Source: a virus
Length of the DNA: 33,760 nt
Reading direction: 5' to 3' (one strand)
IMG/VR virus record: IMGVR_UViG_3300009502_000130
Location: 1 to 33,760 of that record
Shown: positions 5,341 to 33,632 of the stretch, in pieces
Layout: the number at the start of each line of letters is the position of its first letter
Position numbering within the stretch: the first letter of the stretch is position 1
Translations under genes and position numbers: made by a program
The notes under the pieces: model-generated
Seen by the model: only the letters and a program-made list of their open reading frames with translations
The model's database searches: none
Told to the model about the DNA's origin: nothing

Positions 5341-5664
5341 TCACATGTTTTTCTCAAGCTGAGGTTGTTTATAATTATCAAAATATTCGATGACATCATT
5401 AAAACATTTGAATCTTTTTGCGGGTTGCTTCGGTTCCTCAATATAAAAATAAGAAGTCTTTTTTCCAGACGCTTCATCAAGACTCGATTTCTTATAAATT
5501 GTCATCTTAGGAGGCTTTTCTGTTTGCATGTGATGGTCATCTTTGACTTTGAATCCCATTGTTAAAAGGTGATCCACATCGGGCCATCTCAAATCATCTA
5601 TTTTTATTAACCCCGATTCCTTTTCGTCGTTAGCGGAGTGTAAAAGTTCTGTGAGTTTTATCAT
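5341..5664 (-). CDS. Small late protein with MIKL-type N-terminal tag
   Basis: Not recognised. The 107-residue protein begins MIKLTELLHSAN, matching the tag of the proteins at 14364, 16377 and 32925 except that the cleavage-type glutamate is replaced (HSA instead of xEA). The remainder is polar and charged, without visible membrane segments or metal motifs. TATTTATA lies only 3 nt before the ATG, leaving no room for a ribosome binding site. A capsid-internal protein is a reasonable guess, not shown. Confidence 0.7.
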   Translation of the reverse strand: MIKLTELLHSANDEKESGLIKIDDLRWPDVDHLLTMGFKVKDDHHMQTEKPPKMTIYKKSSLDEASGKKTSYFYIEEPKQPAKRFKCFNDVIEYFDNYKQPQLEKNM

Positions 5665-5667
5665 ACT

Positions 5668-5675
5668 TATAAATA
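5668..5675 (-). promoter_or_regulatory. TATTTATA late-promoter-like box
   Basis: TATTTATA on the minus strand 3 nt before the ATG at 5664, the shortest gap in the series. Any transcript from it would be leaderless or start just inside the gene. Confidence 0.5.
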
Positions 5676-5696
5676 GTTAAGTTTCCGACTACTCAT

Positions 5697-6392
5697 TTAC
5701 TTCTCTTCTCCATCTTCGGCTCCTTCTGGTTGGCCTTCTTCTTCCGCCGATTCATATTTAGAAAATGCGGTCCAGCAAAATTGATTTCCTTCTTTTACTT
5801 TCTTAATTACAGTAGTAGTGTTTTTTCCGAAGTCATCGGTCATTTCATATTTCAATAAGAACTTATCACTACTTGTAGGTTTCTCATGCGAAAGTCCAAG
5901 TTTAGCTAGAAACCTAATTAAAATATTAGCTCCTTCAGTTTCATTAATAAAGGTAATGCTTTTTTGAATACGAATTTTGTCATCTATAGTTGTCTCATCA
6001 TCCTCGGATGGTTCGTTGGCAGCAGTATTGGATGGAGTTGATTGCATTGGCTGAGCTGGTTGCATTGGCTGGGCTGTTTGGGCGGGAGGATATGATGCTA
6101 ACTCGGTTACTAATGCCTGCCGTTCCTTCGGTGTCATTTCAATACCACGACATTGATTTACATAGCTATCAAAATCTGCGTTGGTATCAAATGTCTTAGC
6201 AATTACGTTTGGTTGTGGACGAGAATCTCCGCCTGTAAATTCATTTTCGGATACTGATAGATTTCCGCTTGCTGGAATATCAGTTTCTCCACCAATACAT
6301 CCTTCTTTGAATTTTCGTAAGCCAACAAGAAGCTTACGCTTCTGATCTTCACTCATTTGTTCTTTTAATGCTCTCAGCCGCTTGATGTTCAT
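5697..6392 (-). CDS. Acidic-tailed protein with PAQPMQ repeat, unknown function
   Basis: Not recognised. The 231-residue protein starts with a basic helix (MNIKRLRALKEQMSED). It has a low-complexity stretch near 102-118 with PAQPMQ repeats, a folded-looking segment near 140-210, and a strongly acidic C terminus rich in EEEG. The ATG at 6392 follows a clear Shine-Dalgarno (AAAGGA, 5 nt gap), unlike the leaderless-looking neighbours. That ribosome site borders a long palindrome (6401-6450) that could fold in the mRNA. Likely a late structural or internal protein from its context. Confidence 0.72.
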   Translation of the reverse strand: MNIKRLRALKEQMSEDQKRKLLVGLRKFKEGCIGGETDIPASGNLSVSENEFTGGDSRPQPNVIAKTFDTNADFDSYVNQCRGIEMTPKERQALVTELASYPPAQTAQPMQPAQPMQSTPSNTAANEPSEDDETTIDDKIRIQKSITFINETEGANILIRFLAKLGLSHEKPTSSDKFLLKYEMTDDFGKNTTTVIKKVKEGNQFCWTAFSKYESAEEEGQPEGAEDGEEK

Positions 6393-6400
6393 GTTTTTCC

Positions 6401-6450
6401 TTTCGTTGCGGAAACCCCTATCCCTTTAGGGTAGGGGATGAGCAACGAAA
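6401..6450 (+). repeat. IS200/IS605-type palindrome inside a 9-bp inverted repeat
   Basis: The core at 6415-6437 is CCCCTA-t-CCC, TTTA loop, GGG-TAGGGG. It is the inverse of the palindrome at 947-969. It is framed by TTTCGTTGC (6401-6409) and GCAACGAAA (6442-6450), which can pair and extend the structure. The left arm overlaps the Shine-Dalgarno region of the minus-strand gene starting at 6392. Confidence 0.6.
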
Positions 6451-6556
6451 TATAATTGATAATTTCTGTTGACATGTTTCTTAGTTCCTGTTATATATAT
6501 CACAGTTCTTTGGTATATAGTTTGGATAGCAGAAAATAATTGCTTCTATCCAGTAA

Positions 6557-6789
6557 AATCAATCAAGCATCGTTTTTGTGAATAGACCAGAAGGCACTCC
6601 GCTTGCGGAGGAACCGTTATGTAGGGTCTTTGACTCACAATCAACATCCTCCTCGTTGCCCGTTAAGGGCAAGCTGGAAGGCAGGCCACGGTCAATTGGC
6701 CAATCGTCTGTAAATCTTTCTTGAATTATGTTAAGCATAAGCATTAGAGTCTGGCAAGCCCCGACCCTTCAGGGTCGCGGGTAGTTGAC
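6557..6789 (+). mobile_element. Possible decayed IS200/IS605 (tnpB tail plus right end)
   Basis: The segment ends in an IS605-type palindrome (6759-6781: CCCCGACCC, TTCA loop, GGGTCGcGGG) followed by TAGTTGAC. Upstream lie a perfect CTCCGC/GCGGAG hairpin (6597-6610), a TTGCCC/GGGCAA hairpin (6656-6672) and a 10-bp palindrome ATTGGCCAAT (6685-6694), as in an omega-RNA region. A 55-codon frame (6557-6724) is open across them and could be the tail of a degraded tnpB, but shows no zinc-ribbon or catalytic motif. The palindromic end is well supported; the tnpB reading is weak. Confidence 0.4.
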
Positions 6790-7020: not shown

Positions 7021-8601
7021 ATGGACAGTAATCTTTTCAAAGAAGCTATTGCCGATGCCAAGGCAGTTCGCCAAACAGCACTCGCTAACGCAAAGGTAGC
7101 ACTCGAAGAAGCATTTAACGATAGATACAAAATGATGTTCGCCGAGAAACTCAAAGAAGAAGCAGAGCAAGAAGAAACTGCGATGCCAGAAGAAGAAAAC
7201 GGAATGCAACCGCAAGGCGCATCTTCCGTGTCGGAAACAGAAGTGGATGACCTCATCCGTGAACTGGAAGCCGAAGTAGGCGAAGAACCACATCCCGAAC
7301 CCGAAGGCGATGAAGCGGGAGCAGTCCCACCACCGCCCGCAGGAGCAGGAGCACCGCCAATGGGTGGAGCACCAATGGGCGGAGCACCAATGGGTGAACC
7401 TCCAGTAGGCGGAGCACCAGAAGAAATGCCACCAATGGGTGGAGCACCGACAGTGTGTCCTCCAGGGACAATTCCATGTCCGGGCGCTCCGGGTGGACAG
7501 CCAATCCCACAATCAGGTGGAGCAGGCGCACCTCCAATGGGCGGAGCACCGCCAATGGGTGGAGCAGGCGCACCGCCAATGGGTGGAGCACCACCGATGG
7601 GTGGAGCAGGCGCACCGCCAATGGGTGGAGCGCCAGAAGGTCAAGAACCGCCTCCATCAGACGTTCCCCCACCATCGGGAGAAGAAGAAGACGAGGAATT
7701 CGATTTGAATGAACTTTTGGAAAGCCTCAAAGCCGAAATCGGGGAGGAAGACGAAGAGGAAGAAGAAGAAGAAGAGGAAGAGGGCAAGAAACTTGATGAA
7801 CAGACGAAGCTTACTTCATCTGGTATCGGCAGTGGCAAAGCAGGCGGGTCTCCAAATAAGAAACCATCCTCAGCCGCAAGTTCTACCTCGAAAATTGAAT
7901 CCGCTGCCAATGATGACGAAGGTTATCCAACAACGGACCAAGCGAAAGTCGTGGCTAGAGAAGCAACCCAAGCGAGTCGGCCAAATCAAGCGAAGAACGC
8001 AACGAAGACCAATCTGTCTACCCCATCAATGGGCGGAAGTAATGGTTCAGGTGGACAGTCCGATATCGGATATCCAAAGACCGACCAAGCCAAGGTAACA
8101 TCCAGGGAAGCTTCTGGCGCAACTCGCCCTAACCAAGCGAAGAACGCAACGAAGACAAATCTTTCCACTCCTGGTGGAATGTTGCAAGAGAATTCGTTTC
8201 TCAAAAAACAACTTAACGAAGCGGAAGATGTAATTCGCTACGTCAAAGGACAACTTAATGAGGTTAACTTGTTGAATGCTAAACTGCTTTACACGAACAA
8301 GCTGTTTAAACAATACAACATGAACAACGAACACAAAATGCGTATCGTTGAAATGTTTGACCTCGCCAAAAATGTTCGTGAAGTAAAGTTGACTTACGCC
8401 AACATTACCGAGTCATTGAATTTCGGTGGAACTGAAGTGAGAAGGAAGGTTCAAACTTCCTCAACAGTTCAGTCTATTACCGAAGGTCTCGCATCAGGCG
8501 CAGTCGCATCAACACGGCCCAAGGCTATCATAACCGAAGGCAAGTTCGCCAGCAGAATGAAACAACTCGCAGGCATTCGTAGCGAACCAACAAAGAAATA
8601 A
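7021..8601 (+). CDS. Prohead core/scaffold protein (T4 gp22-like role)
   Basis: This 526-residue protein sits immediately before the major capsid gene, where T4-like phages encode the prohead core scaffold. The N terminus (1-50) is a charged helix. Residues about 100-230 are a proline/glycine-rich series of MGGAP units, including 14-residue repeats. An acidic run of E and D follows (about 235-262). Two 49-residue-spaced repeats containing RPNQAKNATKTNLSTP lie near 301-338 and 350-387. The C terminus (390-500) is predicted coiled coil. SITEG and IITEG near the end fit the (I/L)xE prohead-protease consensus. The ATG at 7021 follows AAGGA at 11 nt. Role inferred from context and composition; homology to gp22 is not visible directly. 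Confidence 0.75.
   Translation: MDSNLFKEAIADAKAVRQTALANAKVALEEAFNDRYKMMFAEKLKEEAEQEETAMPEEENGMQPQGASSVSETEVDDLIRELEAEVGEEPHPEPEGDEAGAVPPPPAGAGAPPMGGAPMGGAPMGEPPVGGAPEEMPPMGGAPTVCPPGTIPCPGAPGGQPIPQSGGAGAPPMGGAPPMGGAGAPPMGGAPPMGGAGAPPMGGAPEGQEPPPSDVPPPSGEEEDEEFDLNELLESLKAEIGEEDEEEEEEEEEEGKKLDEQTKLTSSGIGSGKAGGSPNKKPSSAASSTSKIESAANDDEGYPTTDQAKVVAREATQASRPNQAKNATKTNLSTPSMGGSNGSGGQSDIGYPKTDQAKVTSREASGATRPNQAKNATKTNLSTPGGMLQENSFLKKQLNEAEDVIRYVKGQLNEVNLLNAKLLYTNKLFKQYNMNNEHKMRIVEMFDLAKNVREVKLTYANITESLNFGGTEVRRKVQTSSTVQSITEGLASGAVASTRPKAIITEGKFASRMKQLAGIRSEPTKK
7519..7641 (+). repeat. 42-bp tandem repeat encoding a Gly/Ala/Pro/Met unit
   Basis: Two full copies (7519-7560, 7561-7602) and a partial third encode GAGAPPMGGAPPMG in the scaffold gene. 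Looser MGGAP units continue upstream to about 7360. Such a tract can change copy number by slippage. Confidence 0.8.
7921..8181 (+). repeat. Imperfect 147-bp-spaced duplication within the scaffold gene
   Basis: Copies at about 7921-8034 and 8068-8181 both encode GYPxTDQAKV...RPNQAKNATKTNLSTP. The nucleotide sequence has diverged at synonymous sites while the protein motif is kept, which suggests selection on the repeated peptide. Confidence 0.75.
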
Positions 8602-8634: not shown

Positions 8635-10365
8635 ATGGAAAACGTAAAAGAACTGTTGACAAATGCGTTGAATCCTCAAGCACGCTTGATGGCCGAAACC
8701 CGTGGACTTGTGTCCAAATGGGAAAAGACCGGGCTGCTCGAAGGACTTCGTAACGACATTGAAAAATCAAATATGTCGGTGTTGCTTGAAAACCAAGCAA
8801 AACAACTGATCGAAGAATCATCCGTGACCGGAACTCAGAGCAATTCTGAGCAATGGGCAGGTGTGGCACTTCCATTGGTGCGCCGTGTATTCGCCGAAAT
8901 CGCTGCTAAAGAATTCGTATCCGTCCAACCTATGAACCTTCCCTCGGGACTGGTGTTCTATCTGGATTTCAAATACGGAACTAACTCCAGTGTATTTAAT
9001 GCTCAGCCATCTAGCCAAGATTCACTCTTCGGTGGTGTTTCGGGAAGTGATGACCTCTATAGCTCATGGAAGCTTGGATCAACCAATGCTCCTGTCGGTG
9101 GTCTCTATGGCCCAGGTCGCTATGCCTATACCATCAATGATACTGCAAGTGTTGTCTCTATTGCGGTCGATACTGCGTCTATTGCAGATATTAACTTCGA
9201 TACTGGAAATAGCAACGACCCCGTTGCTGCAAGTATCTCTAGTTCCCTTGCCGCTGGTAATCTTTACACATTGACTACTCGGGGATTGACTGTAACGGCT
9301 TCTGCGGGTGGTTCCTACCCCGACCTGAACGCTGTTCGTTCATTCATGCCTATTAGTGCTCAAATCATTACTTGGTTCCCTGGCTTTTCTAAGTTCAATG
9401 GTCCAGAAGCCGTGTTCGTAGTTAGTGCATCCAAGACTGCTGCACCGTATCTTTCGCTTATAGGTACCTCTTCTATTAACTATAGCTTGCAACCGAAAGA
9501 CACTAGCCGTGGTGACTTCGAAGATCGCCTTGGTAAGTGGCAAGGCACTGATTCTCTCGGAACAAGCACAGGCTTGAATCGTGATATCGGTATCCCAGAG
9601 GTGAACCTTGAATTGCGCTCGGAGCCAATTGTGGCTAAGACCCGCAAACTCAAAGCAGTGTGGACTCCAGAACTGGCACAAGACCTTAATGCCTACCACT
9701 CGGTAGATGCTGAGGCCGAATTGACCGCTCTGTTGTCTGAGTATGTCTCAATGGAAATTGACCTCGAAATCCTTGACATGCTTATTAATAACGCCCCAGC
9801 AATCAATAAAGAACGCTGGTCGGCACGTCTCAACCGTGAAATCATCAAGACGGGACTTAACCAGTACCAAATTGTTGATCAAGTAACGGCTGGCGCAGGT
9901 GGATATTACACCAAGGCAACTTGGTATCAAACCCTTGGTAACAAGGTCCAGAAAGTATCCAATAAGATTCACCAGCTCACGCTGCGTGGTGGTGCAAACT
10001 TCATGGTCGTTGGACCAGACGTTGCGACAATCCTTGAATCTATCCCAGGATTCGTTGTCAATACCGATGGCGATAGCGCCAAGTTCGCAATGGGTGTGAG
10101 CCGAGTTGGTTCATTCGCAAGCCGCTTCCAAGTATATAAGAATCCTTATATGCAAGAGAACCTTATCCTTATGGGATTCCGTGGAAATAATTTCCTCGAA
10201 ACTGGAGCTGTGTATAGTCCGTACATCCCACTCATCCAGACGCCTTTGGTATATGATCCCGTCAATTTCACACCGAGACGCGGTGTTATGACCCGCTACG
10301 CCAAAAAAATCGTTAGACCCGAATTTTATGGTCTAATCTATGTTTCCGATACTAATCAGGTATAA
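8635..10365 (+). CDS. Major capsid protein (T4 gp23-like)
   Basis: The 576-residue protein matches T4 gp23 at several points. The N-terminal delta domain is followed by a likely maturation site QLIEESSVTG near residues 58-67, fitting the (I/L)xE rule of prohead protease gp21. Then come VALPLVRRVF and FVSVQPMNLPSGLVFYLDFK (gp23: VQPM, TGLIFAM). The C terminus reads VYSPYIPL...TPRRGVMTRYAKK, like the gp23 end. LMAET near 19-22 is a second possible cut. Length is close to gp23 (521), with a longer middle insertion. The gene follows the scaffold gene by 33 nt, without an obvious Shine-Dalgarno, and is closed by a strong terminator. GC content is higher than in the nearby endonuclease genes. Confidence 0.92.
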   Translation: MENVKELLTNALNPQARLMAETRGLVSKWEKTGLLEGLRNDIEKSNMSVLLENQAKQLIEESSVTGTQSNSEQWAGVALPLVRRVFAEIAAKEFVSVQPMNLPSGLVFYLDFKYGTNSSVFNAQPSSQDSLFGGVSGSDDLYSSWKLGSTNAPVGGLYGPGRYAYTINDTASVVSIAVDTASIADINFDTGNSNDPVAASISSSLAAGNLYTLTTRGLTVTASAGGSYPDLNAVRSFMPISAQIITWFPGFSKFNGPEAVFVVSASKTAAPYLSLIGTSSINYSLQPKDTSRGDFEDRLGKWQGTDSLGTSTGLNRDIGIPEVNLELRSEPIVAKTRKLKAVWTPELAQDLNAYHSVDAEAELTALLSEYVSMEIDLEILDMLINNAPAINKERWSARLNREIIKTGLNQYQIVDQVTAGAGGYYTKATWYQTLGNKVQKVSNKIHQLTLRGGANFMVVGPDVATILESIPGFVVNTDGDSAKFAMGVSRVGSFASRFQVYKNPYMQENLILMGFRGNNFLETGAVYSPYIPLIQTPLVYDPVNFTPRRGVMTRYAKKIVRPEFYGLIYVSDTNQV

Positions 10366-10412: not shown

Positions 10413-10468
10413 GTTTATGTGGGTATGCAAACAAAGACATGTGCCTTTTTAGCATATCCGCTTCATTA

Positions 10469-10480
10469 TATTTATAAATA
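10469..10480. promoter_or_regulatory. Overlapping TATTTATA/TATAAATA boxes
   Basis: TATTTATA (10469-10476) overlaps its complement TATAAATA (10473-10480), so the site reads as the late box on both strands. It lies in the AT-rich gap between the capsid terminator and the next gene and may be fortuitous. Confidence 0.25.
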
Positions 10481-10547
10481 TATTTTTGAATTTCTAATTT
10501 ATTGTTTTTTAATGTTTCGGATATGCAAAAAAGAAAGAAATATTTCC

Positions 10548-10576
10548 TTGACTCTTTTTGGTATATCTGGTATAGT
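10548..10576 (+). promoter_or_regulatory. Sigma70-like promoter for the endonuclease-methyltransferase gene
   Basis: TTGACT (10548-10553), a 17-nt spacer and TATAGT (10571-10576) lie 7 nt before the ATG at 10584, so the mRNA would be leaderless or nearly so. This places the start at 10584 rather than at the GTG/ATG codons open upstream from 10419. Confidence 0.65.
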
Positions 10577-10583
10577 TATTGGC

Positions 10584-14363: not shown

Positions 14364-14714
14364 ATGATTAAATTGCAACATTTGTTGTCGGAGGCTGTCG
14401 GAGTTTTTCTGCTTACCAAGGATGATGTACAGGAAGTAATGCATAAGCTTACTATTCTTCTAAATGAACCCGATCTTCAAGCGGATTACGGGGTGACGAG
14501 AGAGCAGGTTGAGGTGTTACTTAAAAGTATTCCGTTAAATGGTGGGCAGTGGCAAGTCACCAACGAAATGCTTTCAACACTTAAGGGAGAAATGCAGGAT
14601 CATATCGTAGTATTACGAGATATTGCGACAGATGCTTTCAATGCAAACAAACGAGAAGAGGCTTTGCGTATAAATAAACAAGCGGATCGGTTTGAACGAA
14701 TATTCGGATTGTGA
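14364..14714 (+). CDS. Small protein with MIKL-type capsid-targeting-like tag
   Basis: Not recognised. The 116-residue protein begins MIKLQHLLSEA, in which LSE-A matches the (L/I)xE cleavage consensus of T4-type prohead proteases and the whole looks like the T4 capsid-targeting sequence (MKTYQEFIAEA). The rest is helical and soluble, with no metal or catalytic motif. The stop is followed after one nucleotide by the ATG of the next gene (14716), so translation is probably coupled. Likely a small internal head protein; inference from the tag only. Confidence 0.72.
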   Translation: MIKLQHLLSEAVGVFLLTKDDVQEVMHKLTILLNEPDLQADYGVTREQVEVLLKSIPLNGGQWQVTNEMLSTLKGEMQDHIVVLRDIATDAFNANKREEALRINKQADRFERIFGL

Positions 14715-14715: not shown

Positions 14716-15456
14716 ATGATTTCATTTTTAAAAATATTGCGTCGGTTATTAACAGAACGAATGAGTTTTCATGATCTTATTCGTGGGAGTGAAAGTGGAC
14801 GAAAACAACGTGCTCGTACTGATGTCCGTGTGCGTCCTATACGAGTTACTACGATAAATGGCAATGAAGCATGGACATTTTCATACAAAAGTTATCCTAG
14901 CACAACCGGAATTAGATGGAAAGGCTACATCAATTTCTTTAAAAAAGATGTTTCATCTAAAGACAATGCCGAAGACCTTGATTGTATGGTGGATTGTCAG
15001 TGTCCCGATTATCGTTACCGTTGGGCGTATCCAAATTCGGGGGCTGGAGTGGGAACAACAGGCCCAGAATCGTGGAATAAAAACAATGGTCAACCTCCAA
15101 GACCAAGGTCTCAGGGTGGATTAGGGGTATATCCACCAGGGGCATGTAAACATTTAATTGCGTTGGGCAAATATCTTGAAACTCAGATTTCTTCTAACGC
15201 TCCCGATCCAGAAAATGAAGTGCCACCGTCTGGGCCTCAGACCGTTGATGCACCATACCCATATAATGATACCTATACGGATGATCGCTCCGGTTCAGAT
15301 ACATTACAAGAAAGAAATCAAGATGTTCGGGAAATATATAGAAATTTCAAAGATAAAATGTCCTCTACAAATAAATTGTCATTATATGAACGGATAGACA
15401 ATTTTGTCAAATCACATCCTGAATTTGATGTAGAGTATTATGAGGATGAGGATTAG
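14716..15456 (+). CDS. SWIM-like zinc-binding protein with N-terminal tag
   Basis: The 246-residue protein has a CxC...CxH arrangement (C94, C96, C144, H146) in the context DCQCPDYRYRW...GACKHLIALGKYL, the form of a SWIM zinc finger but with a 47-residue Gly/Pro/Asn-rich insertion between the pairs. SWIM modules bind DNA or proteins. The N terminus (MISFLKILRRLLTERMS) is basic/hydrophobic with LTE, again like a capsid-targeting peptide. The C terminus is acidic (YYEDED). The start at 14716 directly follows the previous gene; an upstream ATG at 14692 would overlap that gene. Its 3' end overlaps the convergent HNH gene by about 50 nt. Confidence 0.75.
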   Translation: MISFLKILRRLLTERMSFHDLIRGSESGRKQRARTDVRVRPIRVTTINGNEAWTFSYKSYPSTTGIRWKGYINFFKKDVSSKDNAEDLDCMVDCQCPDYRYRWAYPNSGAGVGTTGPESWNKNNGQPPRPRSQGGLGVYPPGACKHLIALGKYLETQISSNAPDPENEVPPSGPQTVDAPYPYNDTYTDDRSGSDTLQERNQDVREIYRNFKDKMSSTNKLSLYERIDNFVKSHPEFDVEYYEDED

Positions 15457-16376: not shown

Positions 16377-17132
16377 ATGAAAATAATTAAACTACAATCT
16401 CTCATTAAAGAATCTCTTTCCGAAGCCCATCAACAGGGGCATTGGTGGATCGACAATGGTGGTGATTTGCAACAATCAGGTGGTGAAAAAGAGATGAAGA
16501 CTGAGAAATGGAAGCATATGAAGGCTTCTGCGGATAAGATTGAAATCACCACGTGGGAACTTACTGCTCAAGACCTTGGTATTATTCTTCAAGGAATCAA
16601 AAAAATCATGGGTGCTGAAGAAACTGAAAAAGATCCTGATGCCGACGTTGGAAAAGATGGTTATACTGGTCCTCGGGTGGATATTATTCTCAAGAAGAAA
16701 GACAAATCTTTTAAGAATGTTCCACTTGGTATTTTGAAAACATGTTTACCTTCTCATATGAAGAACTATGAGAAGGGTAAAGACTCAGACCTTGCTGGAC
16801 CAGTAACTGAGGAATTTCATCATTTACATAAGGATTATCGACTCTACGAGGGTGACGATAGAATTACGGCTATTTTTGAGGATAATAGCAAGTTGGTTTT
16901 TGAGGTTCATTTCCATAATAACCACGGAGAAGATCGAGATAAATGGCGTCGTCAAGCGTTTTCCAAATGGAAATCTGCGGCCAATGAAATTTACAGAGAT
17001 GTTCAACTAACCGAAGCAGGAAATCCAATACAACGAAGTTGGAAAGAATGCTTTCAAGAAGCTCTTAAGCATCCCAAGCTTAAGGATTATATTCGTCAGC
17101 CTCATCATCAACCTGTCTTCGAGAAGAATTAA
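16377..17132 (+). CDS. Tagged late protein, unknown function
   Basis: Not recognised. The 251-residue protein starts MKIIKLQSLIKESLSEA, containing two consecutive (I/L)xE sites (IKE-S, LSE-A), the clearest capsid-targeting-like tag in the window. The body is hydrophilic, with alternating charged helices and strands and a His-rich stretch near 193-200 (EVHFHNNHGED). No known catalytic motif can be defended. It ends 4 nt inside the convergent fiber-like gene. The tag and late-type box suggest a head-internal or injected protein. Confidence 0.75.
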   Translation: MKIIKLQSLIKESLSEAHQQGHWWIDNGGDLQQSGGEKEMKTEKWKHMKASADKIEITTWELTAQDLGIILQGIKKIMGAEETEKDPDADVGKDGYTGPRVDIILKKKDKSFKNVPLGILKTCLPSHMKNYEKGKDSDLAGPVTEEFHHLHKDYRLYEGDDRITAIFEDNSKLVFEVHFHNNHGEDRDKWRRQAFSKWKSAANEIYRDVQLTEAGNPIQRSWKECFQEALKHPKLKDYIRQPHHQPVFEKN

Positions 17133-24044: not shown

Positions 24045-24519
24045 GTATTTTCAAAAGCTCAAGGGCACGTGCTTCAATTACTTCTAATGCCATGTTCATA
24101 TTATGTAATTCAGTATCCATCAGTTTGCCTTTTGATGACAGTGATCTTACTAATTTTGCCGCTTGAATAATTTCTTTTGCTATTTTAATTTCTCGCTTTT
24201 CATTTGGGTCGGATATATCTGTTTCGCCAGGCATGTCTGATTTATCAAAATACTGCTGATCCTCATCATCCTTATAACCATATTCTTTGGCCAACATTCT
24301 AGCCTCTTGAATAGCAGTTTTCTTGGCTTCTTCTACACTCTTAATATAGCCAAGCCCAACCCCTTGCAGTTTCTTATATGAAAGTCGTTTGTCTCCTGCA
24401 CCAAAGACCTTCTTTAAACCTTCCCGAACAAGCTTTGCCTTGGGATTAACTTCATCAATACTCTCAGTTATGAGTTTGAATTGATTTCCACCGATATTTT
24501 CGAATAGTTTTTGTTTCAT
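24037..24519 (-). CDS. Tagged protein in the neck operon, unknown function
   Basis: Not recognised. The 160-residue protein starts MKQKLFENIGGNQFKLITES; ITE-S fits the prohead-protease consensus and the N terminus is basic/hydrophobic. The remainder is mostly helical and charged, with a Gly-rich segment (KKLQGVGLGYIKS, about 49-61). The ATG at 24519 is preferred over 24567 because the upstream extension would cross the TATTTATA box at 24543-24550. It overlaps the gp14-like gene by 8 nt, implying coupled expression and a virion role. Confidence 0.75.
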   Translation of the reverse strand: MKQKLFENIGGNQFKLITESIDEVNPKAKLVREGLKKVFGAGDKRLSYKKLQGVGLGYIKSVEEAKKTAIQEARMLAKEYGYKDDEDQQYFDKSDMPGETDISDPNEKREIKIAKEIIQAAKLVRSLSSKGKLMDTELHNMNMALEVIEARALELLKIHG

Positions 24520-24542: not shown

Positions 24543-24550
24543 TATAAATA
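24543..24550 (-). promoter_or_regulatory. TATTTATA late-promoter-like box before the neck operon
   Basis: TATATTTATA on the minus strand, 23 nt before the ATG at 24519. Confidence 0.45.
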
Positions 24551-24554
24551 TAAA

Positions 24555-24574: not shown

Positions 24575-24586
24575 TAATAAAATAAC

Positions 24587-24615
24587 TTGATGTTTTATTG
24601 TTTTTGACTTATATT
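24587..24615 (+). promoter_or_regulatory. Sigma70-like promoter for the endonuclease gene
   Basis: TTGATG (24587-24592), a 17-nt spacer and TATATT (24610-24615) lie 10 nt before the ATG at 24626; AAAGG falls between. Confidence 0.5.
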
Positions 24616-24625
24616 GAAAGGTAAT

Positions 24626-26398: not shown

Positions 26399-26415
26399 CA
26401 TCTTCGTGGCAAGAA

Positions 26416-26461
26416 ATCCCACTTGCTTTAGCGGGTCTCCTTTAGGGGATGGGTAGTTCAT
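26416..26461 (+). repeat. IS200/IS605-type double palindrome with right end
   Basis: An ACTTGC/GCGGGT stem with a TTTA loop (26421-26436) and a CTCC/GGGG stem with a TTTA loop (26437-26448) are enclosed by ATCCC/GGGAT and followed by GGGTAGTTCAT. The end sequence is the same as at 115-121. The terminal TTCAT overlaps the stop codon of the convergent gp13-like gene (26458-26460). Confidence 0.55.
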
Positions 26462-27660
26462 AACATGAATAGCAACCCAAACATCCAAAGACCAATATAT
26501 ATATATAAGGGAACTCCCTTCAAAGTATTTTGGAGTTGTTCGGACATTTGGGCCTGCTTCTCAAGTTGATTGAATCTTCCTGCCGCCTCCAATTGTTCTT
26601 TCAAAGTATCCAAAAGTCGTTCTTTTGACTGTTGCGCCTCTGCCCGAAGTTCTGCTCCATCCAATGTTATCTCTCCCCCAGGAATCGGTATTACTTGATG
26701 CTTTTGACGAATTGCGCCAAGGATTTCTTTACAGTTAGCGAGGAAATAATCACGAATCCATTGTTTACCTGGGTCATTAATAGTCATGTATGGATGATTT
26801 ACATACGGAATATCAGCAAAGTCGGAGGAAACCTGCCCCGCAGACCCCGAAGGTGAAAGACTGCTTGCTTCGTAGCGATCTTGTTCATTAATGTATTCGA
26901 GCCATAGTTTGAAACTGGTGGTTGGAATAGGCATGAGCCGAAGGCGGTTGTTTGCCATTTCAAACGAATAGGCCGACTTGCGAACTAAGTCATTGAACTG
27001 AATGGCCTGACCACGAAGTAAATCCTCAAAGATTGGTGTCATTAAGAATTGAACGGCGGGGCTATAAGCTCCAAATCCAAGTTCTTGTAAAACATTACTA
27101 TATGACATTCCCGTCATGGAGAATGGGTCATATATACGCGCAAATGCTGGAGGTCGGTAATGGAACACTCGTTTTACTTCAATGCGGTCACAGTTTTCCA
27201 ATGTGTTACCAATTAATGCTTGGAGGTCATAATCTTGTTGCATTGGGTTGACTTGGATATTTACCTTTTTCCAGTCAAGTTTTCCACCTGTTCCTGCTTC
27301 GGAGCCATAATCTTTAGCAATGTTGATAAGTTGCGGGAGGCCAGACCCTTGGATTACTCGTCCAGTGATAGTTGTATTTCGGTTAAGTCCTTGGAGCGCC
27401 AGCATGTTATTGATCATGTTGTACTCGTTGACTTTGGCATTATAAACATTACAAGCTTCTTCGAATGCAGCATAGAATTGAATATCGATCATTTCTATAG
27501 CAATTGAGGGCCATCCGAGTCGTTTTGTAGCCCACTGCATAGCGTTATAACAATCTCGTTGGAAGATAGGATCAGAATCATACATTCCAAACGGAGTATT
27601 ATTTTGGACTGCCGACCCACTGCCTGGGTATCGTATTAAAGCTTGATTTGAGATTGACAT
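26458..27660 (-). CDS. Neck protein (T4 gp13-like)
   Basis: T4 gp13 is a head-completion protein that forms the neck with gp14. The clearest match is QWIRDYFLANCKEILGAIRQKHQ then IPGGEITLDGAELRAEAQQ (gp13: [39 protein letters not shown]), near residues 300-345. The N-terminal half (residues 20-60: AMQWATKRLGWPSIAIEMID) matches the gp13 start. It is longer than T4 gp13 (400 versus 309). The extra C terminus ends in a hydrophobic stretch (YIYIGLWMFGLLFML) terminated inside an IS605-type end, so it may be abnormal. The first 25 nt overlap the 3' end of the upstream endonuclease gene, and no Shine-Dalgarno is visible. Confidence 0.82.
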   Translation of the reverse strand: MSISNQALIRYPGSGSAVQNNTPFGMYDSDPIFQRDCYNAMQWATKRLGWPSIAIEMIDIQFYAAFEEACNVYNAKVNEYNMINNMLALQGLNRNTTITGRVIQGSGLPQLINIAKDYGSEAGTGGKLDWKKVNIQVNPMQQDYDLQALIGNTLENCDRIEVKRVFHYRPPAFARIYDPFSMTGMSYSNVLQELGFGAYSPAVQFLMTPIFEDLLRGQAIQFNDLVRKSAYSFEMANNRLRLMPIPTTSFKLWLEYINEQDRYEASSLSPSGSAGQVSSDFADIPYVNHPYMTINDPGKQWIRDYFLANCKEILGAIRQKHQVIPIPGGEITLDGAELRAEAQQSKERLLDTLKEQLEAAGRFNQLEKQAQMSEQLQNTLKGVPLYIYIGLWMFGLLFML

Positions 27661-28550
27661 TTTTTGTATTTTTTTATAGGAAATGGCAATGATTTGTCAC
27701 GTTTCCATTGGTTCCAATCACTTTCCCATATATAATAAATATCATATCCCATTTCCTTTAACTTAATAAACTTATTTGTTGTAGATTGGTACAGATTGCC
27801 GAAGGAAGTTTTATTGGAATTATTCGTTTCCTCGGGCAAAAATATTTTCGGATTCCCGTGCCAATAATCTCCCAAGAATTCAAATATTTTATTTTTACTT
27901 ATACCATCGACTTTATATGGTCTGATATATTTTTGTCTATGTTCGGGGGTAGAAGGAATGTTTAGATAATCCAAAAATTCTATTTCGGGCATGGAGATAT
28001 TATTTCGGGCAAAACAAGAGGGGCACTTTGGAATTTTGCCATCTTCTATATTAGAATTAAAATGTGTGTGGCAAGTTGTGCATTCAAATAGGTATAAATC
28101 ATTTACCGTTTTAAAGTCGTGCGGGTCAAACATAGGTTTGAGTGAAAAATTCAACCGAGACCCGTTGAATAATCGTTCAACAAATTGTTTGGTTCTTGTG
28201 TTCAAAATCTTCAATTGAACATTTTTGTTCTGAATAGGATGCTCTGCTCCATAGTGTTGTAAACATGTTTTATTGGCCAAAATTCGATTGTTATAGTTTG
28301 AGTTATTGTATTTTTGTAATTTTGTTAATTTACTTTTTTCTTTTACGGAATTGAGTTTGAATGGATTATCGACTCCATGTTTTTCTAGACATGTTTTTTT
28401 GGTTTTTTCGGCCCTGGCTTTTAATCGGTCGGGAGTCCAAAAAGATTTCATTTTATCCGAAAACGCTGTTGTTTTGGAATAATGATTAACGCCATATTTT
28501 TCCATACAGGTCTTTTCTTTTTTGGACAGCATTTCGGTTATATTTTCCAT
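27636..28550 (-). CDS. Vsr-like homing endonuclease, short form
   Basis: A 304-residue relative of the two long endonucleases without their GNAT-like C-terminal domain. KYGVNH, KHGVDNPF and HYGAEHPIQN (18-107) are the DNA-binding-type repeats. CTTC and CPSC (157-179) form a zinc site. The nuclease block reads PYKVDGIS (D215), IFEFLGDYWHG (E224, H231) and IWESDW (E276, D278). The start at 28550 is chosen from the promoter position; the frame is open to 28589. Its last eight codons overlap the gp13-like start, as if it had inserted at the 5' edge of the neck gene and replaced its leader. Confidence 0.85.
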   Translation of the reverse strand: MENITEMLSKKEKTCMEKYGVNHYSKTTAFSDKMKSFWTPDRLKARAEKTKKTCLEKHGVDNPFKLNSVKEKSKLTKLQKYNNSNYNNRILANKTCLQHYGAEHPIQNKNVQLKILNTRTKQFVERLFNGSRLNFSLKPMFDPHDFKTVNDLYLFECTTCHTHFNSNIEDGKIPKCPSCFARNNISMPEIEFLDYLNIPSTPEHRQKYIRPYKVDGISKNKIFEFLGDYWHGNPKIFLPEETNNSNKTSFGNLYQSTTNKFIKLKEMGYDIYYIWESDWNQWKRDKSLPFPIKKYKKCQSQIKL

Positions 28551-28560
28551 AATATCTCTA

Positions 28561-28589
28561 ATTATAATTATGATCAACCAAATAATCAA
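28561..28589 (-). promoter_or_regulatory. Sigma70-like promoter for the short endonuclease
   Basis: On the minus strand TTGATT (28589-28584), a 17-nt spacer and TATAAT (28566-28561) lie 10 nt before the ATG at 28550. Confidence 0.55.
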
Positions 28590-28624
28590 TTATTTTTAAT
28601 TTGAGTGGATATATTTAAATTTTA

Positions 28625-28632
28625 TATTTATA
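28625..28632 (+). promoter_or_regulatory. TATTTATA late-promoter-like box
   Basis: TATATTTATA on the plus strand, 44 nt before the ATG at 28677. It is the longest gap among the small tagged genes, so a leader is possible here. Confidence 0.4.
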
Positions 28633-28676
28633 CTCGTCTAGTGTCCTGTATATGATGAGGATACGTATCAATTCAA

Positions 28677-29219
28677 ATGAATAAAAAGAACAATTTATTA
28701 ATACGAGAGATATTGAGTGAGATAGGCATCAACCGAGAAGTTGATCATTTATCACAGGTAAGAGATATTACTACTAAGGTACAGACATATCAATTTGTGG
28801 TAAATGAGATAAAGTATATAATTCAATTTGGATTAGATATAGTTGGGGAGGATACTATTTTGGATATATCTTTTAGGAATTTGACAGCGATTGAGAAATT
28901 GAAGTCAAAGAAGAATAGTTCTGTTGATGATTTTTATTCTGATTTAGATCAGGCCAAGTTTGGATTAACGAAGACAGGAAGTTCTATATTTATTTTCAAT
29001 GAAATTTACAATGTAGTTATAAAATATATAGAAAACAAGATGCCGAGATATATAAAATATGAGGCAGTGGAAGACAATAGGAAGAAGCTTTACTCTGCTT
29101 TAATTAAAAGAGCAGAAACGGAGACTGCATTAAAGTTTGAAAGAATATTTATGGATCCGATTACAAATGTTAAGTTAACAGATACCAGTCAAGTATTTGT
29201 ATATAAAATTAGCTATTAA
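28677..29219 (+). CDS. Tagged protein preceding the multidomain effector gene
   Basis: Not recognised. The 180-residue protein begins MNKKNNLLIREILSEIG, with IRE and LSE sites of the (I/L)xE type. The body mixes helices and strands, with many Ile, Lys and Tyr residues and no visible catalytic or metal motif. It lies 21 nt before the 963-residue NUDIX/SleB protein and is probably co-transcribed with it, so it may be packaged with it or assist it. Codon use is more AT-rich than in that gene. Confidence 0.7.
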   Translation: MNKKNNLLIREILSEIGINREVDHLSQVRDITTKVQTYQFVVNEIKYIIQFGLDIVGEDTILDISFRNLTAIEKLKSKKNSSVDDFYSDLDQAKFGLTKTGSSIFIFNEIYNVVIKYIENKMPRYIKYEAVEDNRKKLYSALIKRAETETALKFERIFMDPITNVKLTDTSQVFVYKISY

Positions 29220-29240
29220 ATAAATAGTCCGCCGATTAAG

Positions 29241-32132
29241 ATGAAACCATTGACTGCTAAATTATCTCAAGAAGTAAATACCGATCAACCGTCCATACAA
29301 AAAGAGTATTGGGATACTGGTCTTGGTGCTGCGGGATGTATTTTTGTGGCTAGAGATACTGGAAAAATTCTACTTGCTCATAGAAATCCAAACAAAGATC
29401 CTGAACGAGGTCGTGTCGAAGAATCAAACACATGGGCTACTTGGGGAGGAGCAATTAATGATGGTGAGACTCCTAAAGAGGCAGTTATGAGAGAGGTCGA
29501 TGAAGAAACGGGTTACGACGGAGAATATAAACTCGCTTTTCTGTGGACTTATGAGGACGAAGAAGAAGGATTTCAATATCACAATTATTTGGCTGTAGTA
29601 GATTCCGAGTTTCTTCCGAAACATTCTTGGGAGAATGACATGGGAAAATGGGTAGAGTGGGGAGAGTGGCCGCATCCCATGCATTGGGGATTAAAAGCAT
29701 TACTTGATAATGCGGGCGAAAAAATTCATCGAGTTATTACCTTGATTAAGCGGAAGAAGGCTGGTATAGTTGAAGGAATGACCGCACCACCAGCAATTGT
29801 GCAACATGTAGCAAAAAATGCTACTGCGAACTACAATATTACAAATACCTATATTGCAGCCACTACTTTGTGGGGAGAAGCCCGCGAGAATGGAAGGCAG
29901 GGAATGCAAGCTGTGATGAATGTTATTATGAATCGGGCCAATGGAGACTTCAGCAAGGCAAAGGATATTGTATTGGCTCACAATCAATTTTCGGTATGGA
30001 ATAATGTTACTAATGCCGAACAAACGGCATTTACTGCTGCCAGTCAATATCGTAATGATGAAGAATGGCAACGGGCTATTCGTATTGTGGATTTAGCTGC
30101 TAGGGGACATCTTCCTGATATTACAGGCGGAGCAACACACTATTTCAATCCAAAGAAACCAGAGAAAACATGGGTAGAGACGGAAATTAAAAAAGTTGGT
30201 AAAAAAGTTGGTATAAAAATGTTAGCTCCAGATTGGGCACATAGTATGAATTGTACTATCGTTATCAAAAAGCATATATTTCTTAAACTGGCACCAATTG
30301 TTAAGAGTCATGCATCTCATAAACCATCGTCACCACCACCAATTATCAAGAAAAAGAAAATAAAAAAAGGGAAGGCTCATGGTGCTATTCGTGAAATGAC
30401 GGATGCTCAAGACTCCAACGAAATTGTTCCCGTCAAGAAAGGGATTGTGGGAGATGGAATATGGGAATACGAATTGAAGTCCTCCCATTCATATTTGCGT
30501 TATAGATATGAGCCAGATACAAAGATATTTTATCTTGATAATATTGGCACTCCTAAGCCAGAGGATAAAAACAAAGGCTATGCTAAGGCTCTTCTCGAAA
30601 CCTTTTTTCGGCTTATTGCGAAGCAAAATGGGGCATTGGACAGTGGACCATTTACAGTTTCAGGTACAGCATATATAAAACATGTTGTCAAGCGATTTGC
30701 ACAAAAATACAATATAAATTTAGTCCAGGGGCGAGACGAAGTGAATGAAGCAGTGCAACGTGCTTCATCAAACATTACAGAATCTAAACTTGATTTTTCG
30801 GTGGAAGGAAAGAATATACCGCCTGAGGAAGTAAAAAAAGCTATACAGCTTCTTTATCGCTTTTTTAAAGAACGAGACACTATGGTATGGCTTATGTCTC
30901 ATAAGTGGTTTTTGGTTTCTGCAAAGACTGATCGTACTTGGATAGACGGAGAACGGTATGAGTTTGATTACATTCCAGTCAAGGGAAAAGAAGTGACGAG
31001 AAAGCCGTTTGATGGATTGGACTACACCCGAAAGATGAAGATGTTTCGCACGCCGAAAGACGCCATTGACTACATGACAGCCAATGAAAAGAAACATGAA
31101 GGTCATTATGCCTTCCGTGGGATGAACATGGCCGAATGGGTAGATGCCCAAAAGCAAGGATACATCAAGTCCAAGGCCGAATACAATTTAGGTGGAGTTT
31201 TGCAGACATATTACGGGTCGAATTGGAGCACTGCTCATAGTTATGCAGGAGGATTTGCCCCGTTTGACAAGGAACCTACGAGGTCTTTGCCCGGAGTCAT
31301 TATCGCCGTTCCATTTGAGTCAACTAAAGATGCCAAAGCAACGACGGGAATGGGAACTCATGGTGATGGTGAACGAGTAGCAGAAAAAATACCTCTCGAT
31401 CAAGTAAAGGGGGTGTGGTATATTGTTCCGACTGAAGTGGGTAGAGGGTCCATAGAATTAGTCTTAAAAGATGGAAATTTGGACAGAGGCTCTGCTTGTC
31501 CTCCATCGGCGAAGTTTGTTATTGTCCCGAAGGAAGGTATTTCCAGAGAGTTGAACGAGGCATATGGTGATCAAGGAGACCATGTGATATTTGGTGGAGT
31601 GTTTTATCCTGACCGAGTTGTGGCAAATATAGTTAAGAGTCATGATAATTATTTTGGGCATACACATGAGCATGGGCCGACTCGTTGGGTGTATTATCAG
31701 GGAATGAAGACTGTATTCTGGCATCAGTATCCGCCTGCGATACCAGAGTGGGAAGTGATTGTGAAAGATTGGCTGGAAAAACATGGTTATGAAGTAGAAA
31801 GACAGACCGACAAAGAACAATATTATAAAATGATGTCATGGTTTCAGAAGAAGGGTCTGTTAAAAGAGATGGAAGATGCTGCTGTGATTTTAGGCGCACT
31901 TAACAAAGATGGATCGAATATGCAGCCTGTGCGTAGTGCTAATCAATTGGATAATCATCCGCCACATATGAAGGTGACAGATGTACGATGGCGTTATTAT
32001 CCAGAACTTCAACAATTGGATTGGCAAGGCAAACCGACACCAGAAGAACATGAGGGCACAAAAGAATTTCTAGCGCAGCGAGGATTAATTGTACGCCGAG
32101 TCCATTATCTCGCAGGGATGCCGAAAAGATAG
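29241..32132 (+). CDS. Multidomain protein: NUDIX, SleB hydrolase, GNAT-like, ADP-ribosyltransferase-like
   Basis: 963 residues, at least four modules. NUDIX hydrolase (about 25-165): perfect box G70-x5-E76-x7-R84-E85-V-D-E88-E89-T-G91. SleB-type cell-wall hydrolase (about 200-350): TTLWGEARENG with candidate catalytic E213, GMQAVMNVIMNRA, NQFSVW, GATHYFNP. A GNAT-like stretch (about 405-500) with NKGYAKALLETFF. An ADP-ribosyltransferase-like region (about 620-745): YAFRGM (R626), NWSTAHSYAGG (S663), PGVIIAVP, GERVAEKIPLDQVKGVWYIV (E711/E715), fitting an R-S-E triad. The C-terminal 190 residues are unknown. The N terminus (MKPLTAKLSQEV) resembles the tags nearby but lacks a strict (I/L)xE. 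Such sites (IVE 178, IRE 385, ITE 514, LNE 773) fall near module borders. Possibly an injected enzyme comparable in concept to T4 Alt; inference. Confidence 0.8.
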   Translation: MKPLTAKLSQEVNTDQPSIQKEYWDTGLGAAGCIFVARDTGKILLAHRNPNKDPERGRVEESNTWATWGGAINDGETPKEAVMREVDEETGYDGEYKLAFLWTYEDEEEGFQYHNYLAVVDSEFLPKHSWENDMGKWVEWGEWPHPMHWGLKALLDNAGEKIHRVITLIKRKKAGIVEGMTAPPAIVQHVAKNATANYNITNTYIAATTLWGEARENGRQGMQAVMNVIMNRANGDFSKAKDIVLAHNQFSVWNNVTNAEQTAFTAASQYRNDEEWQRAIRIVDLAARGHLPDITGGATHYFNPKKPEKTWVETEIKKVGKKVGIKMLAPDWAHSMNCTIVIKKHIFLKLAPIVKSHASHKPSSPPPIIKKKKIKKGKAHGAIREMTDAQDSNEIVPVKKGIVGDGIWEYELKSSHSYLRYRYEPDTKIFYLDNIGTPKPEDKNKGYAKALLETFFRLIAKQNGALDSGPFTVSGTAYIKHVVKRFAQKYNINLVQGRDEVNEAVQRASSNITESKLDFSVEGKNIPPEEVKKAIQLLYRFFKERDTMVWLMSHKWFLVSAKTDRTWIDGERYEFDYIPVKGKEVTRKPFDGLDYTRKMKMFRTPKDAIDYMTANEKKHEGHYAFRGMNMAEWVDAQKQGYIKSKAEYNLGGVLQTYYGSNWSTAHSYAGGFAPFDKEPTRSLPGVIIAVPFESTKDAKATTGMGTHGDGERVAEKIPLDQVKGVWYIVPTEVGRGSIELVLKDGNLDRGSACPPSAKFVIVPKEGISRELNEAYGDQGDHVIFGGVFYPDRVVANIVKSHDNYFGHTHEHGPTRWVYYQGMKTVFWHQYPPAIPEWEVIVKDWLEKHGYEVERQTDKEQYYKMMSWFQKKGLLKEMEDAAVILGALNKDGSNMQPVRSANQLDNHPPHMKVTDVRWRYYPELQQLDWQGKPTPEEHEGTKEFLAQRGLIVRRVHYLAGMPKR

Positions 32133-32133
32133 A

Positions 32134-32829
32134 TCATTTTGTCTTAAGGGTCGGTTTAAGCCATATACCTTTGCTTTCAATTACTTCCCATAAAAAGGGA
32201 TGAGATTGTAGAATCCATATAGCCTTTCTCCAGTTTGCACTGAATGCTTTACAGAGTTCAATTTGCATCATTTCTTTTGTAACTGGGATAAAATCTTCAA
32301 TGGTGCGAAATTCATCAATCGCATCGTGTATTTCCTGGCTAATGGAAAATCCAAGTTGGCATGAAAATCTGATAGCGCGACAAATCCGAAGTCGGTCTTC
32401 TTTGAATCGGTCAATGGCGTTTCCTACCGACTGAATGGATTTAGCAGCAATATCATATTGTCCATTGAATGGGTCAATAAGTATCAAAGACCCAACTTCC
32501 CGGGCAATGGCGTTCAGTCTGAAATCTCTTCTGGCGAGGTCATCTTCTATTGTTAGGGCGGGTGTTACACTATCTGGATGGCGAGCATCGGTGTAGAATG
32601 CTTCTTTGCGAGCAAGTGTAAAATCAACTGCCCCAAGAACGGGATGTTTAGCACGGATGGATACAAATTGGGGGCGCTCTTGATAAAATGTACATCCAAT
32701 GTCTAATAGATGTTGCCGCATTGTCTCATAATCTGGAGAAATTACGGCAAAATCTCTGTCACTCGGAGGTCGTCCCATCAATTCATTTCGAATGGAGCCA
32801 CCGACTTCAAATATTCGGATATTAGTCAT
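32134..32829 (-). CDS. CCA-adding enzyme/poly(A) polymerase-like head domain protein
   Basis: A 231-residue class II nucleotidyltransferase. It carries VGGSIRNELMGRPPSDRDFAV (metal ligands D24, D26), GAVDFTLAR, DLARRDFRLNAIA, LIDPFNGQYDI, and FKEDRLRICRAIRFSCQLGF, i.e. head and neck domains in order. The body/tail domains or HD domain of full-length (~400) enzymes are absent, so tRNA selection may differ or it may need a partner. It could add CCA or other nucleotides to tRNA ends. The start at 32829 is set by a promoter 7 nt upstream and by the usual position of the VGGxxR motif; the frame is open to 32895. The stop is 1 nt from the convergent large gene. Confidence 0.85.
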   Translation of the reverse strand: MTNIRIFEVGGSIRNELMGRPPSDRDFAVISPDYETMRQHLLDIGCTFYQERPQFVSIRAKHPVLGAVDFTLARKEAFYTDARHPDSVTPALTIEDDLARRDFRLNAIAREVGSLILIDPFNGQYDIAAKSIQSVGNAIDRFKEDRLRICRAIRFSCQLGFSISQEIHDAIDEFRTIEDFIPVTKEMMQIELCKAFSANWRKAIWILQSHPFLWEVIESKGIWLKPTLKTK

Positions 32830-32836
32830 TACAACC

Positions 32837-32864
32837 AATATATCACGTTTATTTGAAATGTCAA
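32837..32864 (-). promoter_or_regulatory. Sigma70-like promoter for the CCA-enzyme-like gene
   Basis: On the minus strand TTGACA (32864-32859), a 16-nt spacer and TATATT (32842-32837) end 7 nt before the ATG at 32829, predicting a leaderless mRNA. Confidence 0.68.
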
Positions 32865-32912
32865 TGGGGGGTTTCAGTTTTATTGGGTTCATCATAATGT
32901 CCGAAAGGTTTA

Positions 32913-32920
32913 TATTTATA
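32913..32920 (+). promoter_or_regulatory. TATTTATA late-promoter-like box
   Basis: TATATTTATA ends 4 nt before the ATG at 32925 (10 nt before the alternative ATG at 32931). Confidence 0.55.
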
Positions 32921-32924
32921 TCAA

Positions 32925-33632
32925 ATGGCTATGATAAAACTAAAAACACTTATAATGGAAGAAAGCTCCGATAGTATTGATTTGCAAGAAATCGCGAATT
33001 TACTTGAGCGAGGATATGGGGTTGTATTCGATACCAATGAAGTTCATGCCCGACCAGTGGGGCATTCGATTGAGATAATATTTAGATATCTCGACCATCC
33101 ATATAAAAAATTCGAACATAATACTGGAAGGTATAAAATTATAATTGATATTCGGTCATCATTATATCATGGAAAATATCCGTCGGCTATATTAAAACAA
33201 AACATACCAGATATAGAATATTTTGTAAGTTTCGAGGAGGAATCTCATTTCAAATCTACAAGCCAAAAATCTTCGTCGGAAGACTCTGACGATTCGTGGG
33301 AAGATCAAGGAGAACTTTCAGGTGATTCATGGAAAGGCACGGAGCCAGAAGAACTTCCCGACGATTCGTGGAAAGATACCACTCACGGGAAAATTATACA
33401 ACATATAGGAAATTGGATGAAAGATTTCAGGGACCGTGATATATGGCAAATTTTATATCTTCGTATGCAAGAACCGGATTGGAAAGAAAGCATAAACAAA
33501 ATCACTTTTGCGGGAGAAAATTGGTCATTATATAAAATAGTTTTATTATCAAAAGAAATTATTGATAACAACCTTGAATATTTTAATGGAGACGTAAAGC
33601 ATGTAAACAAAAGGTATCCTAGAAAAATGTGA
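32925..33632 (+). CDS. Tagged late protein with DSW repeats
   Basis: Not recognised. The 235-residue protein starts MAMIKLKTLIMEES; IME-E fits the (I/L)xE rule and IKLxxLI matches the tags at 14364 and 16377. If translation begins at the second ATG (32931) the protein starts MIKL exactly like those. After a folded-looking domain (15-110) comes an acidic, Ser-rich stretch with three DSW units (about 123-151: DDSWEDQ, GDSWKGT, DDSWKDT), then a helical C-terminal domain (155-235). It is followed directly by an IS605-type palindrome. Function unknown; probably packaged if the tag is real. Confidence 0.75.
   Translation: MAMIKLKTLIMEESSDSIDLQEIANLLERGYGVVFDTNEVHARPVGHSIEIIFRYLDHPYKKFEHNTGRYKIIIDIRSSLYHGKYPSAILKQNIPDIEYFVSFEEESHFKSTSQKSSSEDSDDSWEDQGELSGDSWKGTEPEELPDDSWKDTTHGKIIQHIGNWMKDFRDRDIWQILYLRMQEPDWKESINKITFAGENWSLYKIVLLSKEIIDNNLEYFNGDVKHVNKRYPRKM

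Follow-up and report, generated by a model that had tools for sequence, protein, structure and literature searches.

N-terminal peptides resembling T4 capsid-targeting sequences on otherwise unrelated proteins of an uncultured Far-T4 phage

In phage T4, the internal proteins IPI-IPIII and Alt begin with a capsid-targeting sequence of about 10 residues, hydrophobic at positions 4 and 7, which the prohead protease gp21 cuts off (PMC9026906, PMC5694885); in IPIII, residues 4 and 7 are needed for targeting and residues 8 and 10 for processing (PMC9026906). Alt is also the textbook ADP-ribosyltransferase (ART) that is packaged in the head and injected (PMC5512222, PMC10468400). This study examined a 33,760-base stretch of viral DNA, IMG/VR record IMGVR_UViG_3300009502_000130 (hereafter the window, meaning the whole stretch), in which otherwise unrelated proteins share short N-terminal peptides (hereafter tags). 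As in IPI-IPIII and Alt, these tags combine hydrophobic residues at positions 4, 7 and 8 with a predicted cut site after a glutamate at position 10 (E10), a constant tag precedes variable bodies, a protease of the same family is encoded in the genome, and the cargos of the phage group include ARTs. They differ from the T4 system in that they occur in Far-T4 relatives, where a genome can have as many as dozens of tagged genes as opposed to about four in T4, in that there are several distinct tags, and in that docking, cutting, presence in the virion and injection are here inferred from sequence. Our reading, which we hold with considerable confidence, is that the tags act as T4-type capsid-targeting sequences, serving docking, protease cutting, retention in the head and presumed entry into the host.

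Several other described systems share parts of this arrangement. The T4 gp24 propeptide, MAKINELLRE/S (here and below, a slash outside brackets marks a cut), is the closest single sequence to the class-1 tags described here (MIKLxxLLxE), although gp24 is a shell protein and the tags sit on enzymes and small proteins. In phage P1, an N-terminal peptide of the anti-restriction protein DarB suffices to load a reporter into the head, whereas the Dar proteins have no common consensus and P1 has no separate scaffold (PMC9024508). In phiKZ and SPN3US, the prohead protease removes N-terminal propeptides from packaged ejection proteins, and the diverged paralogues gp53 and gp54 are identical over their first 15 residues; unlike the tags, these propeptides are mostly longer than 100 residues, with cleavage motifs SxE or AxE (PMC5694885). 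Polyvalent proteins with ART-PolyVal and other effector domains have likewise been predicted to be packaged and injected, and are defined by their domain mixtures rather than by a loading tag (PMC5512222). Because proteomics of cultured virions is needed, the head-injected protein content is known for very few phages; a tag readable from sequence, combined with a protease site and a register that T4 genetics has established, would, if the reading is true, allow injected proteins to be predicted for thousands of uncultured genomes, most of these proteins being from families of unknown function.

Tags and head genes of the window

The search with a 963-residue protein encoded in the window recovered a longer contig, IMGVR_UViG_3300025162_000041 (G056, 82,907 bases), in which bases 36451-70210 match the window at 100% identity. 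The nearest isolates by major capsid protein are Microcystis phage Mel-JY01 (53%), Flavobacterium phage immuto (53%) and Rhodothermus phage RM378 (37%), a group that has been named Far-T4 (PMC4360716). The window represents part of the genome of a Far-T4 myovirus: its capsid protein is of the gp23 family and nearest to RM378 and related uncultured contigs, and the portal and protease are T4-like. The first-pass annotation of the window had placed the tag system outside T4 relatives; the phage belongs among the distant relatives of T4, with gp23 capsid, gp20 portal and gp21 protease.

The prohead protease (PF03420, E 9e-20) that this annotation had called for is present on G056 upstream of the window, as are the portal (PF07230) and the terminase. 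A search confined to the window found no protease, the gene lying on the same contig some 2-3.7 kb before the first base of the window. A prohead protease was found in 14 of 14 relatives tested, and the gp21 catalytic motifs are conserved, namely GELNHP for the histidine and ISSRG (VSSRG in T4) for the serine. The proposed similarity of the capsid site LIEE-S to the tag sites also held, as the form hhxE/[SA] (h, hydrophobic) is kept in the relatives (LIEE/S, LLDE/A, LISE/A and IVSE/A in the window and relatives); hhxE is a site form common to the tags, the capsid protein and the protease.

All of the peptides that had been named from the sequence were located, either where they had been placed or within two codons (Table 1); the first ATG of the 32925 gene, for example, lies two codons 5' of MIKL. 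The register of the 14364 tag (h4, h7, h8, E10) is that of T4 IPIII, and T4 IPII/IPIII (MKTYQEFIAE/A) and gp24 have the same spacing. Four window variants were checked by homology (14716, 24037, 4807 and 16377), and their homologues back them. At the same junction, homologues of the 14716 protein read MIKLKDLLLE/KMSFRDLL and MIKLRDLLCE/RMSFRDIL; a homologue of the 24037-24519 protein in sequence L229 bears MMIKLKQLLKE/AVNG in place of the FKLITE tag; and homologous bodies of the 16377 family bear varied other N-termini that end in (I/L)xE. The 4807-5307 protein has some 60 homologues, in many of which the tag is of the form MIKLKxL(V/I)E; N-termini in this family include MSIPKTTKLTLKRIVE/A, MIKLKHLVE/N, MIKLKTLIEE and MKILKLRPLIE/G. 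Its homologue in Mel-JY01 is the next gene after the prohead protease, suggesting that the 4807-5307 protein is probably a prohead core protein. The 131-958 protein is zinc-ribbon-like, each of its three successive tag copies has its own ATG, and the triple copy is retained in an orthologue at 45% identity; its gene is the first full-length plus-strand gene of G056 past the prohead protease and one endonuclease-like gene. For the 5664 protein, the shared MIKLTELL stood and the cut site did not, as it has no (I/L)xE and no homologue with E at position 10; its N-terminus could at most be a tag that stays on the protein.

Table 1. Tags, tag classes and head features of the window; a slash outside brackets marks a predicted cut
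Feature	Coordinates	Strand	Remarks
Three class-3 tag copies FLKQCIAEVLVE, LIKQCIAEVIIE, LIKECVMEVLKE plus LLSE	131..373	+	Start of protein 131-958
Tag MSIPKTTKLTLKRIVE/A	5260..5307	-	166-residue protein 4807-5307
MIKLTELLHS, docking residues without cut-site E	5635..5664	-	Protein 5341-5664
Prohead scaffold (T4 gp22 slot)	7021..8601	+	Directly 5' of capsid gene; assigned by position, N-terminus and conserved C-terminus
Scaffold C-terminal peptide IITE/GKFASRMKQLAGIRSEPTKK	8539..8598	+	Copied by class-2 tags of other phages
Major capsid protein, gp23 family	8635..10365	+	PHROG 138, E 3.7e-66
Predicted 61-residue capsid propeptide ending KQLIEE/S	8635..8817	+	hhxE/[SA] form in relatives
Class-1 tag MIKLQHLLSE/A	14364..14393	+	Orphan 116-residue protein 14364-14714
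Tag MISFLKILRRLLTE/R	14716..14757	+	Ahead of conserved RMSFHDL body, gene 14716-15456
Tag MKIIKLQSLIKE/SLSE/A	16377..16424	+	251-residue protein 16377-17132
Tag ending FKLITE/S	24463..24519	-	160-residue protein 24037-24519
Tag-like N-terminus MNKKNNLLIREILSE/I, ..LLIREILSE	28677..28721	+	Class 3, LxxIIxEE type; orphan 180-residue protein
963-residue protein: NUDIX, cell wall hydrolase, further unassigned domains	29241..32132	+	
Tag MAMIKLKTLIME/E	32925..32960	+	Orphan 235-residue protein 32925-33632
Class 1 tag: (M)IKLKxLLxE			Window example at 14364
Class 2 tag: (E)EFxRMQKLAGI(I/L)xE			Copy of the scaffold C-terminal peptide
Class 3 tag: LRxIIKEE(I/L)xxxLxE			Common near protease in LR756508
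Class 4 tag: FDLKKFLVENKLTxNSxxL			Four times in immuto

The genome-wide enrichment expected by the first-pass annotation was observed in both the window and its relatives, by comparison with inner stretches of the same proteins and by shuffling. Bare (I/L)xE is enriched just 1.3-1.5 fold over whole genomes, too weak for a claim, and fixed-register, conditional, shuffle and permuted-pattern tests were therefore used. Thirteen gene sets were used, from the window and from 12 genomes or contigs picked for their capsid protein and not for tags. In these sets, 52 of 2,275 genes have the register M1-x-x-h4-x-x-h7-h8-x-E10, with 4.8 expected from inner stretches (P 2e-35); this and the other P values treat genes as independent and are, given the paralogues in LR756508, indicative. 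With further contigs added (2,716 genes), the fixed E10 register occurred 59 times against 5.1 +/- 2.2 after shuffling residues 2-25, and the looser h..hh.E 279 times against 93 +/- 10. Within the window itself, h..hh.E begins 6 of 26 genes (1.1 +/- 1.0 when shuffled), and the stricter [KR][IL]..[ILF][ILV].[ED], i.e., the KLxxL(L/I)x(E/D) form, occurs three times in the first 20 residues, as opposed to 0.06 expected from the remainder of the same proteins (P 3e-5). The conditional test points the same way: among genes with an Mx[KR][LI] start, 30 of 123 end in h7h8.E10 vs. 1.5% (P 2e-27), residues 7 and 8 turn hydrophobic, residue 10 is E in 28% vs. 7%, and the excess ends at residue 10. In immuto, for which deposited gene calls were used, the head region holds 11 tags against 0.95 expected (P 6e-9) and the tail region none against 0.5.

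In IMG/VR, a DNA pattern for MIKLKxLLxE matched at least 120 stretches and the same residues in permuted order matched three; the former pattern had 29 matches in 257 Gb of cellular genomes. Where the peptide is the same, the 35 nucleotides (nt) upstream are unalike and the codons for the same residues differ, which argues for selection on the peptide. In the phage genome LR756508 (W04), 66 genes carry the motif against 16.6 expected, dozens of them in runs (177-195 kb, 212-224 kb, 255-299 kb and 329-338 kb).

Scaffold C-terminus and exchange of tags

A second tag family, absent from the first-pass annotation, is built on the C-terminal peptide of the prohead scaffold. The scaffold of the window ends in RMKQLAGIRSEPTKK and that of relatives in RMQKLAGI(I/K) or a similar peptide, an ending of this type being present in each Far-T4 genome where it is readable. 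Among 104 distinct IMG/VR open reading frames (ORFs) containing MQKLAGI, the peptide is at the extreme C-terminus in 68, near the N-terminus in 27 and elsewhere in nine. The C-terminal cases with enough downstream DNA nearly all (69 of 71) sit about 27 nt before a gp23-like gene, as opposed to 0 of 21 N-terminal ones, and in most of the N-terminal cases (I/L)xE then follows. Upstream of the peptide, 68 of 76 scaffolds have a protease-type site, (I/L/V)xE, at a distance of 26 residues or fewer, most often 6-10. Judged from these sequences, the class-2 tag is a copy of the scaffold C-terminus, a relationship that is new here; the strings QKLAGI and IKLKDLL were not found in the literature searched.

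In our reading, the scaffold would be held via its C-terminal peptide until a cut frees it, and cargo proteins would borrow the same peptide and be released by cleavage on its opposite flank. The class-2 tag also suggests the site where the scaffold grips its partner, which by analogy with other scaffolds may be the shell. The herpesvirus scaffold likewise has a maturation cut site followed by a short C-terminal shell-binding tail, and we know of no copying of that tail onto cargo proteins.

The tag classes also replace one another on related proteins. The body of a class-2 tagged protein of sequence L599 is homologous to that of an immuto protein with a class-4 tag (36%, E 4e-18), and some HAD phosphatases have a tag where others have none. 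That homologous cargos differ in their tags indicates that the tags are exchangeable modules, and lends indirect support to the idea that a tag might be sufficient for loading a foreign protein. T4-style N-termini were also seen in a cultured marine phage, Methylophilales phage Melnitz-2 (L627), as MQGFKTFLSE/A, MKKFSEIIE/A and MKNFKNHIAE/E at 12203, 14914 and 21306.

Predicted cargo proteins and competing explanations

Beyond their first 24 residues, 142 tagged IMG/VR proteins represent at least 86 unrelated families, which share an N-terminal peptide of 10-20 residues. Most of these families have no known domain; those that do include ART-PolyVal, NUDIX, zeta-toxin-like kinase, HD, lysozyme, CCA-adding enzyme, GNAT and cytidylyltransferase. 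Six ART-PolyVal matches, three of them above the curated cut-off, occur in 15 Far-T4 records, and every one is on a tagged gene, although only about 4% of genes are tagged. A tagged protein of sequence G002 matches the anti-CBASS (cyclic oligonucleotide-based antiphage signaling system) protein Acb1 weakly, just under the cut-off, and one Acb1 match, in LR756508, is on a gene without a tag. One IMG/VR cargo family matches Methylophilales phage Melnitz, in whose genome, over the stretch read, there is no overall excess of the broad motif (3 vs. 2.6) and for which no virion proteomics was reported (PMC9004378); two further cargo families have no match among isolate phages.

In the window, the 963-residue protein has (I/L)xE sites at residues 176, 383, 512, 771 and 873, some of them in inter-domain linkers, and we speculate that it may be a multi-domain cargo or polyprotein cut by the prohead protease; the sole copy found elsewhere is 100% identical. 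For its residues 514-773, structure prediction for an ART fold gave a predicted local distance difference test (pLDDT) score of 35, and profile comparison for an ART gave no match; an ART is therefore not claimed in the window. LR756508 encodes at least 12 tagged paralogues of 250-290 residues with LYRG...SxFA motifs, which are ART-like in look and were not confirmed as such by Pfam or PDB profiles.

While the head is being assembled, a new protein would be docked on the prohead core or shell by h4 and h7 of its N-terminal peptide. Cleavage by the T4-type protease after the hhxE glutamate (h8, E10) would then release the protein, which would remain in the head and presumably enter the host along with the DNA, with several exchangeable tag classes serving the same loading in related phages. 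Several observations weigh against this. The cut-site glutamate is missing in every homologue seen of the 5341-5664 family, and the position following the cut is less constrained than in T4. In RM378 and Mel-JY01, isolates that have the protease, the broad motif is at most slightly in excess, and none of the genes of G003, the nearest contig, fits the strict register. Gene calls other than those of immuto came from a simple script. Among contigs of at least 40 kb, tagged ones encode the prohead protease in 14 of 24 cases and random ones in 5 of 21 (P 0.02; for gp23, 14 of 24 vs. 4 of 21), and since both sets are fragments this association gives modest support. No virion proteomics or cleavage data for Far-T4 phages were found in the literature searched.

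Four other explanations were weighed. Ordinary amphipathic or lysine-rich starts could fit a loose pattern through chance or composition, as the commonness of (I/L)xE by itself and its slight whole-genome enrichment would suggest; yet the register signal is lost on shuffling, the permuted pattern is rare, the tag stays at the same junction of homologous cargos while its sequence changes, and the pattern ends at E10 where a helix would continue, so that this explanation, already disfavoured, is very improbable. The occurrence of tagged genes in runs (G002, 231-238 kb; LR756508, 330-338 kb) could instead reflect the copying of a mobile DNA cassette of promoter, ribosome site and start codon with the peptide as a by-product. 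Such a cassette is at odds with the dissimilar upstream DNA and variable codons, and the constraint falls on peptide positions 4, 7, 8 and 10, which leaves this idea with almost no credibility.

The tagged proteins might dock on the scaffold or shell merely to help assembly, and then be broken down or depart together with the core. T4 core proteins gp22, gp67 and gp68 likewise have such sites and get cut up; the 4807 and 131 families adjoin the protease and resemble core parts, and the 5341 family lacks the cut site. Against such a role, the cargos span at least 86 unrelated families and include enzymes (ART, NUDIX, zeta-type kinase, HD, CCA-adding enzyme, lysozyme) with no obvious part in assembly, and we consider it unlikely for the tagged set. 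Alternatively, the tags could address the tail, a membrane or a phage compartment, their likeness to capsid-targeting sequences being convergent. The class-2 tag, however, is the scaffold's own C-terminal peptide, the immuto tags crowd the head region and avoid the tail region, and the site form is common to the capsid protein and protease, making a destination other than the head exceedingly doubtful.

Extending the capsid-targeting reading beyond this phage, we lean towards the view that T4-related phages of open environments load dozens of effectors per head via exchangeable N-terminal addresses, one of them a scaffold copy, from which the effectors are cut free. These would comprise ARTs, kinases, nucleotide and RNA enzymes and probably counter-defence proteins. 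If this holds, virion content would be readable from the genome, and what Far-T4 phages carry and inject should be predictable from sequence alone.

Neighbouring genes and repeats

An ADP-ribosylglycohydrolase without a tag is encoded at 2170-3054 (PF03747, E 5e-32), and might protect phage proteins, given that the group's tagged cargos include ARTs. Endonuclease-like genes with repeated EKYGVxNP motifs (DUF7487) lie at 3059-4687 (-), 10419-12584 (+), 24614-26398 (+) and 27636-28589 (-), some inserted amid head genes. The terminase, portal and prohead protease genes of G056 (20954-23785, 23844-29669 and 32751-34526) all have intein-type insertions containing LAGLIDADG or HNH endonuclease domains, and the protease is also split at the same site in G001, G005, G008, G009 and LR756508. 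About 200 noncoding bases at 6388-6593 recur as inverted repeats at two further places of G056 (88-91% identity), and no match for this repeat was found in Rfam. Since a G056 ORF at 19326-20282 resembles a TnpB protein, judging by its sequence, the repeat may be an IS605-type end or a guide RNA.

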